Below, piece by piece: positions 29,422 through 40,398 of a stretch of DNA of 64,000 nucleotides; the stretch's first letter is position 1; each line of letters opens with the position of its first letter. The stretch is from Pedococcus sp. 5OH_020 (GTDB lineage: Bacteria; Actinomycetota; Actinomycetes; Actinomycetales; Dermatophilaceae): positions 62,001-126,000 of the forward strand of contig NZ_JAPYZV010000007.1 of the NCBI RefSeq assembly GCF_027812955.1, read 5' to 3'. The position numbers were made by a program, and so were the translations under genes. The notes under the pieces were generated by a model that searched no databases, had not been told where the DNA came from, and worked only from the letters and a program-made list of their open reading frames with translations.

Positions 29422-29442
29422 CTTCCCCGCCGCCCTTCCCCC

Positions 29443-29517
29443 ACCGGACTCACGAATTTGTGAGTGTCGAGGTCGCAAGCGGCTCGACACTCATAAAAAG
29501 GTGAGTCCGGTCGAGGG
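29443..29517. repeat. Nested palindrome, copy 1 (left of the AbiEi/DUF559-like gene)
   Basis: A 75-bp element with outer arms CCGGACTCAC (29444-29453) and GTGAGTCCGG (29501-29510), and inner arms TGAGTGTCGAG (29461-29471) and CTCGACACTCA (29483-29493), all perfect. The inner stem can extend through TTTG/TAAA, and CGC-AA-GCG closes the tip. It aligns without gaps to the 75 bp at 30587-30661 (52 identities counted by hand). The stop codon of the minus-strand nuclease-like gene (29493-29491) lies in the inner stem. It also separates that gene from convergent paaN and may act as a terminator. Confidence 0.8.
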
Positions 29518-30486
29518 GGTGGAGCGCCAAAGGCCCGTGAACCGGGAAGCGTCGCCGGCTCTGCGCGCAGACCAGACGGCGTGCTGGACGGACCGCGGGC
29601 GCTCGAGCAAGTCCCGCAGCTCGAAGCGGACCACCGTCAGCCCCACGTTGGTCAGGTCGTTGTGACGCGACTTCTCTCTCCAGAAGGTCGAACCGATCCC
29701 TTCACCATCGTCGTCCTGGTACTTCGCGCGACCGTCGAGCTCGAGCACCGTGGCATCGTCCTTCCACCCTCCGTCGACGCGACCCAGGAACAGCCCGCCG
29801 AGATCCTCGATGACGACCTGTGGCTCCGGCAGGTTGACTCCCCACTCGTGGAAGCGGACGGACCCCCAGGACTCGAGCCAGGACTCCCGTCGGCCGTCGA
29901 CCAGCATCAGCGACGCACGAGCCCGCGGCTTACCGCGCCAGCGACGCTGTGACTCCAAGACGGCCCGCACGTCCTGCGGAGCCGTGAGACCCCGGTGGAG
30001 CGCGGCATCCGCGATCGGTACGGAGACCCGAGGCCCGAAGCTGCGTAGGCAGTCGGCGACGGTCCACGCTGTGCTCGTGACGACAAGCCCGTCGGCGAGG
30101 TCCAGCTCGGGCTCGACGGAGTCGCAGTGGTGGAGCACCGCGCCGTGGGGAGTGCGCGAGCGCTGCGTGGAGTGGATCGTCGTCAGGTGGACGGGTCCCG
30201 CCGGCCCCATGGGCAGAGGCAGGCCGTATGCGGCGGCCGCGGTGAGGTGGCTCGCGGCATACCCCGTGGTGAACCGGTCGAGGGCTACGCGAGCCTCGCT
30301 GACGTGGCGTGCCGAGCGGGCCTCGGGCGCGACGGGCTCCGCCCTCTCATAGGTGCCGTGGCGCAGCCGGCGGACGAGGCCGCGACGCACCCACGTACGC
30401 AGCCGTACGTCGCTGACGCCCGCCTCGACCGCCTGGCGTCGGGTGAAGATGTCCGGCAGCAGGTCTGGATGCACCCGTCCGAGCAT
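29491..30486 (-). CDS. AbiEi-like winged-helix protein with DUF559/Vsr-like nuclease domain
   Basis: 331 residues. The N terminus (about 10-55: LLPDIFTRRQAVEAG to RGLVRRLRHGTYERA) matches the AbiEi antitoxin-type winged helix. The middle (about 85-170) resembles AbiEi C-terminal regions. The last 130 residues resemble DUF559/Vsr-like endonucleases, with Asp in GRVDGGWKDDA and ELDGRAKY giving a PD-(D/E)xK-like set. No AbiEii nucleotidyltransferase partner is next to it. The start at 30486 is the first methionine fitting the family; I see no strong Shine-Dalgarno. It is bracketed by two homologous palindromes in the same orientation, and its last seven codons lie in one of them. Stand-alone defence protein or part of a palindromic mobile unit; both are inferences. 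Confidence 0.72.
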   Translation of the reverse strand: MLGRVHPDLLPDIFTRRQAVEAGVSDVRLRTWVRRGLVRRLRHGTYERAEPVAPEARSARHVSEARVALDRFTTGYAASHLTAAAAYGLPLPMGPAGPVHLTTIHSTQRSRTPHGAVLHHCDSVEPELDLADGLVVTSTAWTVADCLRSFGPRVSVPIADAALHRGLTAPQDVRAVLESQRRWRGKPRARASLMLVDGRRESWLESWGSVRFHEWGVNLPEPQVVIEDLGGLFLGRVDGGWKDDATVLELDGRAKYQDDDGEGIGSTFWREKSRHNDLTNVGLTVVRFELRDLLERPRSVQHAVWSARRAGDASRFTGLWRSTPSTGLTFL

Positions 30487-30586
30487 CAGGCTGATCTGGT
30501 CCCTGCAGGGCGCCGACGAGACGTCCTGTGGACTGGCGAGCCTCGTGCCAGGTCCTGTGCCCTCACTTCCTCGGTTCCCTCGCCCG

Positions 30587-30661
30587 ACCAGACTCGGGAT
30601 CTTGTGCGTGTCGGGCCTTCGGCGGACGAGACACGCACAACAACGTGAGTCTGGTCGAGGG
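30587..30661. repeat. Nested palindrome, copy 2 (right of the AbiEi/DUF559-like gene)
   Basis: Same length and orientation as copy 1. Outer arms are CGACCAGACTC (30585-30595) and GAGTCTGGTCG (30647-30657); inner arms are TTGTGCGTGTC (30602-30612) and GACACGCACAA (30630-30640); all perfect. Two stem pairs differ from copy 1 by compensatory change: G-C to A-T in the outer stem and A-T to C-G in the inner stem. It sits in the 306-bp gap (30487-30792) between the nuclease-like gene and the holin-like gene. That gap otherwise holds a G-rich stretch (30658-30690), the short repeats below, and no convincing gene. Confidence 0.8.
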
Positions 30662-30698
30662 ACGGGGGCGGGAGGGGACGGAAGGGGACGGCCGCGCG

Positions 30699-30755
30699 AA
30701 GGTGAGTGCAGGCAGGTCAGTGAGCCGGAAGGTGAGTGCAGGAAAGTGAGTCCGG
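30699..30755 (+). repeat. Short direct repeats of the GTGAG motif
   Basis: AAGGTGAGTGCAGG occurs at 30699-30712 and again at 30729-30742 (period 30). Between them is AGTGAGCCGG (30719-30728), and after them GTGAGTCCGG (30746-30755), which is identical to the right outer arm of palindrome copy 1. They lie between copy 2 and the next gene and may be degenerate half-sites of the same element. Confidence 0.65.
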
Positions 30756-30792
30756 CCGGGTATGGCGCCGCGTCGTCTGGCACTATCGCGCC

Positions 30793-40313: not shown

Positions 40314-40339
40314 GACGTTCCTTGGACCGGGGAGGTTGC

Positions 40340-40379
40340 TTGCGCCATACAAATATCACGCGATGCTTGTATGGCGCAA
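40340..40379. promoter_or_regulatory. 13-bp inverted-repeat operator of the marR-MFS operon
   Basis: Perfect arms TTGCGCCATACAA (40340-40352) and TTGTATGGCGCAA (40367-40379) with a 14-bp spacer of AATATCACGCGATG-like composition, AT-rich for this genome. It lies between the MarR start (40313) and the end of the mycothiol-dependent gene (40399). Arm centres are 27 bp apart, enough for two dimers or one large site. Confidence 0.75.
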
Positions 40380-40398
40380 ACAACTGCGGCCAGGCAGG

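Follow-up and report, generated by a model that had tools for sequence, protein, structure and literature searches.

The window analysed here, a 64-kb stretch of DNA from Pedococcus sp. 5OH_020, contains a gene (P0001) that lies between two palindromic elements (Table 1). Its neighbours, paaN and a gene for a small membrane protein, are both on the opposite strand. The start of P0001, an ATG at 30486, was set from the alignment with its relatives, and its stop codon (minus strand, 29491-29493) falls within copy 1 of the palindrome. Copy 1 is in a convergent setting and copy 2 in a divergent one, ahead of the start codons of two divergent genes.

Table 1. Features of the locus, in window coordinates.
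Feature	Position	Strand	Description or evidence
Segment present here and absent in 8 congeners between paaN and the next gene	29422..30775	.	alignment of congener junctions
Palindromic element, copy 1	29443..29517	.	covariance-model match, E 2.0e-15 (copy 1 is in the model-building set)
Copy 1, outer arms	29443-29453/29501-29511		11 bp
Copy 1, inner arms	29457-29471/29483-29497		15 bp; variable loop between
AbiEi-type winged helix + Vsr/DUF559-type nuclease gene (P0001)	29491..30486	-	PF13338, E 1.1e-8; alignment of relatives; residue conservation
Palindromic element, copy 2	30587..30661	.	covariance-model match, E 8.9e-14 (copy 2 is in the model-building set)
Copy 2, outer arms	30587-30595/30647-30655		9 bp
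Copy 2, inner arms	30602-30612/30630-30640		11 bp
Solo half-sites (three)	30701..30755	+	GTGAGTGCAG at 30702, GTGAGTGCAG at 30732, GTGAGTCCGG at 30746; adjoin copy 2

An earlier note on this DNA had described two elements of 75 bp, 1,144 bp apart, that align without gaps and are identical in 52 of 75 columns; our alignment reproduces all these figures. It had also reported perfect outer and inner stems, which holds for the outer stem of copy 1 and the inner stem of copy 2, whereas the inner stem of copy 1 includes one G-T pair. Both elements fold better than their dinucleotide shuffles (z -8.45 for copy 1 and -5.06 for copy 2, with 0/200 shuffles as good in each case). The palindrome has no Rfam match above the gathering score, the best being a microRNA family (25 bits vs a gathering score of 74), and we rejected a known RNA family as its identity. 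Another strong palindrome is found elsewhere in the window (40335-40384, GTTGCTTGCGCCATACAA...TTGTATGGCGCAAACAAC), and its full arms were seen only at that place in the DNA examined.

The only Pfam match of P0001, up to E 1, is PF13338 (AbiEi_4), and the protein also matches the PADLOC model of AbiEi (E 2.2e-16). PF04480 and PF18741 do not match P0001 itself at E≤1, and its Vsr-like C-terminal half is visible by profile comparison only: a profile built from P0001 together with 10 relatives could be aligned along 286 columns to ten other homologs (hhalign E 1.1e-40), nine of which gave a DUF559 or MTES_1575 signal (PF04480/PF18741) when scanned, some under the curated cut-off. Among solved structures, the nuclease half of this homolog set is closest to 3r3p ('Mobile intron protein', E 1.2e-7), which we take to be I-Bth0305I, followed by 3hrl ('Endonuclease-Like Protein', E 8.1e-7); Vsr structures match the same set weakly (E 0.4-0.7). 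Across 16 proteins, each of the catalytic-type residues E234, E238, D271, E282, D284, and K288 (P0001 numbering) is either invariant or conserved to at least 90%; the homolog at L089 (G005), which has a stop within the frame, was excluded from the protein alignments. The PF13338 match and the profile comparison agree with the initial description of an AbiEi-like helix and a Vsr/DUF559-like domain.

P0001-like genes are frequent in the order, with matches in 34 of 39 genomes, its own included. We rejected the view that such genes are normally carried by phages or plasmids, since P0001 has matches in 0/50,697 phage records and 1/72,556 plasmid records; two query proteins had no relative in viral contigs. 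The single plasmid record, NZ_OY725717.1, is labelled Collinsella 'plasmid 6' and looks like a piece of chromosome: it carries glutamate synthase, smpB, and ftsEX.

The gene, both palindromes, and the half-sites lie together in a segment of 1,354 bp. Empty sites, which the earlier note had proposed to seek in relatives, were found in eight congeners, where paaN adjoins the next gene and the alignment with the paaN end breaks off 5 to 37 bp short of a conserved TCTGG motif. This motif precedes the gene next to paaN and begins here at 30776. In the remaining two of the 10 congeners, paaN does not adjoin that gene. The insertion at paaN has no definable target-site duplication. In our genome, the gene and its brackets occupy as one block a site that is vacant in these eight congeners.

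The palindrome family of P0001

A search for the half-site pattern identified inverted pairs at a fixed distance of 57 nt in five places of the genome. We then used a covariance model built from 10 aligned full copies, scoring up to 150 candidates per genome, and found at least 21 places at E≤1 and at least 17 at E≤1e-6, of which 10 are the building set. The family has about 20 copies in this genome, and only two of them adjoin a P0001-like gene; the genome-wide search therefore returned the many copies that had been anticipated, most of them away from such genes. The copies have variable loops, and two besides those of the window carry extra half-sites with a tandem period of 19 nt. They lie mostly directly downstream of genes: among 15 of the 17 strong copies (the window's two left out), classed with a crude ORF caller, 14 have a gene on their left that is transcribed in their direction, and 7 are in convergent, 8 in co-directional, and 0 in divergent settings. 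All 17 strong copies, including the 7 outside the building set, score higher on the plus strand of their contig, a bias that would not be expected, since contig orientation should be arbitrary.

The earlier note had taken paired changes in both stems as a sign that selection keeps the structure. Both double changes exist, but base-pair covariation does not exceed that of shuffled alignments: the 10 own copies score 0.074, a value reached by 167/500 shuffles, and 12 dissimilar copies of a congener family give 0.667 for paired and 0.664 for shuffled columns. We therefore rejected covariation as proof of a selected fold. The conserved feature is the sequence of inverted half-sites at near-fixed spacing, not their pairing.

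The family is not common to the genus. At E≤0.01, the covariance model has no match in the 10 congeners (up to 150 candidates scored per genome), and at E≤1 three of them show weak matches that are mutually dissimilar. Among the other 28 relatives, the one match at E≤0.01 is in G016, and we rejected it as a member of the same family: its half-site is GGTGTCCGGTC, with a period of ~19 nt, and the sole P0001 homolog found in that genome has other brackets (L193). G016, which belongs to the same taxonomic family as our genome, has two-armed half-site arrays (L128-L143; period ~19 nt, GGTGTCCGGTCG) that converge on GCGATCG and are not the brackets of its P0001 homolog. Used as a pattern, the exact outer arms matched 4 contigs, scattered over the species collection, and 0 viral contigs.

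Bracketed nuclease genes in other genomes

Ten of the best matches of P0001, from nine congeners and G028, are at one common locus, different from the paaN locus, whose genes are presumably a phosphate transporter gene and pstB. Nine of these ten orthologs (those of eight congeners and of G028) have matching flanks, which are mostly palindromes; the copy of G004 is degenerate and lacks matching flanks, and the match in G028 is not palindromic on both sides by a strict test. A conserved locus without palindromes in the relatives, which would have spoken against the pairing, is therefore not what we observe, because the conserved locus of the relatives does carry them. The bracket sequences vary between species, with half-sites CTTCTGGCC in G003 and G009, CTTCGGGCC in G002, CTTGTTGCC in G001, G006, and G010, CTTCGTACC in G007, and CTTCTTGCC in G005.

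The palindromes of these congeners are also dispersed in their genomes. Using patterns composed after the bracket sequences had been seen, and counting tandem copies, we found 52 places in G003, 33 in G009, 19 in G001, 18 in G002, 13 in G006, 6 in G007, 3 in G010, and 2 in G005. Reversed patterns matched 0 to 3 times overall and 0-2 times in these eight genomes. The patterns have no match in our own genome (G000), in G004, or in G008, and 0 or 1 in each of 28 genomes outside the genus; G004 and G008 carry P0001 homologs, yet no copy of the patterned families. The palindromes measure about 30-90 nt and are often nested; at the first listed place of each genome, the outer arms of G001 and G002 span 58-59 nt, against 66-69 nt for those of the other six genomes. 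G006 has two families, with 5 places like the brackets of its own gene and 8 of another kind. In G003, which has 3 P0001 homologs for its 52 places, some copies form 83-bp tandem arrays. A 400-kb sample of that genome (L208-L227) includes solitary elements similar to those that flank its two other homologs (L211:10617 and L209:10983 vs those of L185 and L197), as well as further palindrome families with no assigned gene, among them GTTCGAGGTGA (L210, L216, L222, and L227) and GGTATGCCGCG (twice in L208, and in L211).

Our own genome has a decayed gene of the AbiEi/DUF559 type at the shared locus (L190, G000:C22:163300-167800), with its homology split over three reading frames. It has brackets on both sides, from a palindrome family separate from that of P0001, whose half-site occurs 10 times in this genome and 0 times in the 10 congeners (control 0). 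A further site is occupied repeatedly. At C26:425093, a solitary copy of the P0001 family separates two genes that keep their order in 11/11 genomes. Between these two genes, 6 of the 10 congeners have a DUF559-type gene flanked on either side by palindromes, whose sequences are of several unrelated kinds; the other four showed no gene of this type there. Different nuclease-palindrome units thus use one intergenic site.

To quantify bracketing, we took the best ungapped match between the 420 bp upstream of a gene and the 420 bp around its stop, with a threshold of 17. This value is reached by 38 of 47 homologs, 36 of which are palindromic on both sides, leaving 9/47 under the threshold; the 47 are not independent, since the shared locus contributes 11, including the decayed copy. 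They come from 49 listed loci (L106 and L183 have no alignment), and L107, a duplicate of L191, was excluded. Mispaired flanks reached the threshold in 0/141 cases. Other genes of G003 did so in 2/144 cases, these controls being ORFs of 220-560 aa from stretches partly chosen to include known copies; one of the two is itself a DUF559-type gene, so the control amounts to 1/143. Among loci from other genera, with two G028 loci excluded, 12/19 pass the strict test.

The similarity of palindromes follows that of proteins, with r of 0.74-0.85 for 11 proteins and 0.56-0.74 for the 8 of the genus. The half-sites were chosen by hand and the correlation is no stronger for the winged helix than for other domains, so that it may reflect co-inheritance or common descent.

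We also sampled AbiEi_4 proteins across the phylum (149 genomes, 30 loci), where 26 loci were testable and 4 had flanks too short, and found 3/26 bracketed. Seven of the eight long proteins have a DUF559 or MTES_1575 signal in Pfam (L242 and L255 under the DUF559 cut-off), and three of the seven are bracketed. The other AbiEi_4 proteins, which lack an evident nuclease domain, are bracketed in 0/19 cases (the Pfam scan covered the one long protein among them, the other 18 being shorter). The rule is thus patchy across the phylum. Bracketed genes with database names are WP_148332043.1 of Collinsella aerofaciens and WP_170181078.1 of Tsukamurella tyrosinosolvens, both annotated as hypothetical protein. 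The Collinsella palindrome has 21 places in its own 900-kb record (counting tandem copies and possibly both strands) and none in other plasmid records; in the 49 kb around the gene, about 11 copies occupy 4 sites; two of these are the brackets, of which one is an array, and the remaining two are arrays as well.

Origin of the pairing and known systems

Genes of the AbiEi-helix/Vsr-DUF559 type are often bracketed by matched palindromes that differ from gene to gene, and in the families examined the bracket palindromes are also dispersed, solitary or in tandem, in the same genome. The arrangement of palindromes and a nuclease gene that the earlier note had likened to REP/RAYT is real, and wider than first seen: it recurs beyond the locus in dispersed copies, repeated bracketing, and an empty site. 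The association is firm, and from it we infer cutting and spreading by the protein. In our preferred reading, to which we give a probability of roughly 0.6, gene and palindromes are partners in the way that RAYT genes and REP/REPIN palindromes are, on an unrelated protein that would bind, cut, and spread its own bracket.

Three other readings were weighed against this one. The palindromes might be transcription terminators or insulators framing horizontally acquired nuclease genes, perhaps of defence, and the solitary copies ordinary terminators. This would fit the position of the elements, mostly directly behind genes (the left-hand gene points toward 14 of 15 own copies, and none is divergent), and the strong hairpins of the window copies. 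It is improbable given that inspection by eye showed no run of T after the stem of either window copy on either strand, that copy 2 precedes the start codons of two divergent genes, and that terminators need neither a common species-specific sequence nor one that matches around a gene yet differs between genes, as the 0/141 mispaired flanks indicate. The palindromes might instead be operators through which the AbiEi helix regulates its own gene and a regulon, with a nuclease domain that acts elsewhere. In the accessible part of PMC3985639, AbiEi is autoregulatory and binds inverted repeats of 11 bp with N27 spacing through its winged helix. The arms and spacers described here are alike in kind to that operator, sequence rather than pairing is conserved, and copy 2 is in a divergent promoter region. 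We nevertheless hold this reading to be unlikely: the 15 own copies examined outside the window are behind genes and not in divergent promoter regions, one of the two brackets follows the gene, the genes of AbiEi_4 proteins that lack an evident nuclease domain have no such brackets (0/19), and tandem arrays and dispersal would require another agent.

A homing or cassette system, in which nuclease-stimulated recombination at the palindromes would carry the gene from one hot spot to another and the solitary copies would be landing sites or scars of loss, has a similarly small probability. Its attraction lies in the closest solved relative, the 'Mobile intron protein' 3r3p, in the intergenic site that holds bracketed DUF559-type genes in 6/10 congeners and a solitary palindrome of the P0001 family here, and in the fact that our own genome has the gene at one site and a decayed copy of it at another. 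Yet solitary copies far outnumber genes, as in G003 (52 places vs 3 homologs), so loss scars alone do not explain them, and the tandem arrays suggest that the palindrome itself multiplies.

If gene and palindromes are partners, as we favour, the winged helix would bind the inverted half-sites in the manner of AbiEi on its operator, and the nuclease would nick or cut there, or at the hairpin or cruciform formed by the palindrome. Repair or strand transfer could then copy the palindrome into new intergenic sites, chiefly directly behind stop codons, with occasional movement of the gene together with its brackets. Protein and half-site would drift jointly, each gene thereby acquiring its own family, and the palindromes would persist as orphans once the gene dies or is replaced. 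Against the simplest version of this scheme, most solitary copies have no adjacent P0001-like gene. We know of no Vsr-type enzyme that transposes DNA.

These results suggest that a nuclease and its private palindrome form, in many actinobacteria, an unrecognised kind of genomic partnership. We give even odds to the broader proposal of a large undescribed actinobacterial class of selfish or domesticated palindrome systems, in which nucleases with an AbiEi helix and a Vsr fold would recognise, cut, and multiply their own bracket, as a convergent counterpart of REPIN/RAYT; this would provide a role for many genes annotated 'DUF559' or 'AbiEi family'. Pfam names the nuclease part a domain of unknown function, and each P0001-like gene now has a directly testable target in its bracket. 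If the mechanism were true, there would be a second, unrelated class of enzymes sustaining REP-like repeats, many species-specific intergenic palindromes of high-GC genomes would be explained, and the targets of these nucleases could be read from their flanks.

MITEs and similar intergenic repeats (ERIC, Correia, RUP) are short, dispersed, palindromic, and extragenic, as are the families described here, which differ in being tied to the nuclease gene that they bracket. P0001 resembles Vsr-fold nucleases (3r3p, DUF559/REase_MTES_1575) in its nuclease half and catalytic-type residues. Unlike the mobile-intron protein 3r3p, it is associated with a bracketing palindrome family, and we saw no intron or intein. 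With the type IV toxin-antitoxin AbiE it shares the AbiEi_4 winged helix, which in the AbiEi antitoxin binds inverted repeats, and it differs by the nuclease-like half that follows. We found no description in the open-access literature of such a pairing of nuclease and palindrome, nor a link of DUF559 to such palindromes, nor, among the papers listed, a relevant one on REPIN/RAYT in actinobacteria. The MTES_1575 nuclease is described as a Vsr-fold domain in the available portion of PMC3710099, which does not mention palindromes; a 2025 survey of REPs, in the excerpts at hand (PMC12306157), reports actinobacterial genomes with many REP-like matches and does not mention DUF559, RAYT, or nucleases.

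The closest likeness is with REP/REPIN palindromes and their RAYT (TnpA-REP) genes. In the accessible text of PMC3116915 and PMC3733652, a REPtron pairs one RAYT gene, present in single copy, with an adjacent REP family of its own; several flavours occur per genome, and the gene does not mobilise itself. The same text of PMC3733652 reports GTAG repeats from Proteobacteria, Cyanobacteria, Chloroflexi, and PVC, and does not mention actinobacteria. Here too, genes are flanked by their own family (38/47 matched, 36 palindromic on both sides), and, as described in those sections of PMC3116915 and PMC3733652, a genome has several families, each next to a single-copy gene of its own, with extragenic copies close to the ends of genes, with clusters, and with families that lack a live gene. 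The families here have 2 to 52 places per genome, vs the >100 given as usual for REPs in the part of PMC2817692 available, and their palindromes, of about 30-90 nt and often nested, count as a further difference. Because the bracketed protein is an AbiEi helix with a Vsr/DUF559-type nuclease and not an HUH/Y1 transposase, and because the GTAG foot of REP palindromes is missing (GTAG/CTAC in 0/10 aligned own copies), we do not class the system among the REPtrons, although its mode of action may be similar; we regard it as a new type of system that has a known analogue.
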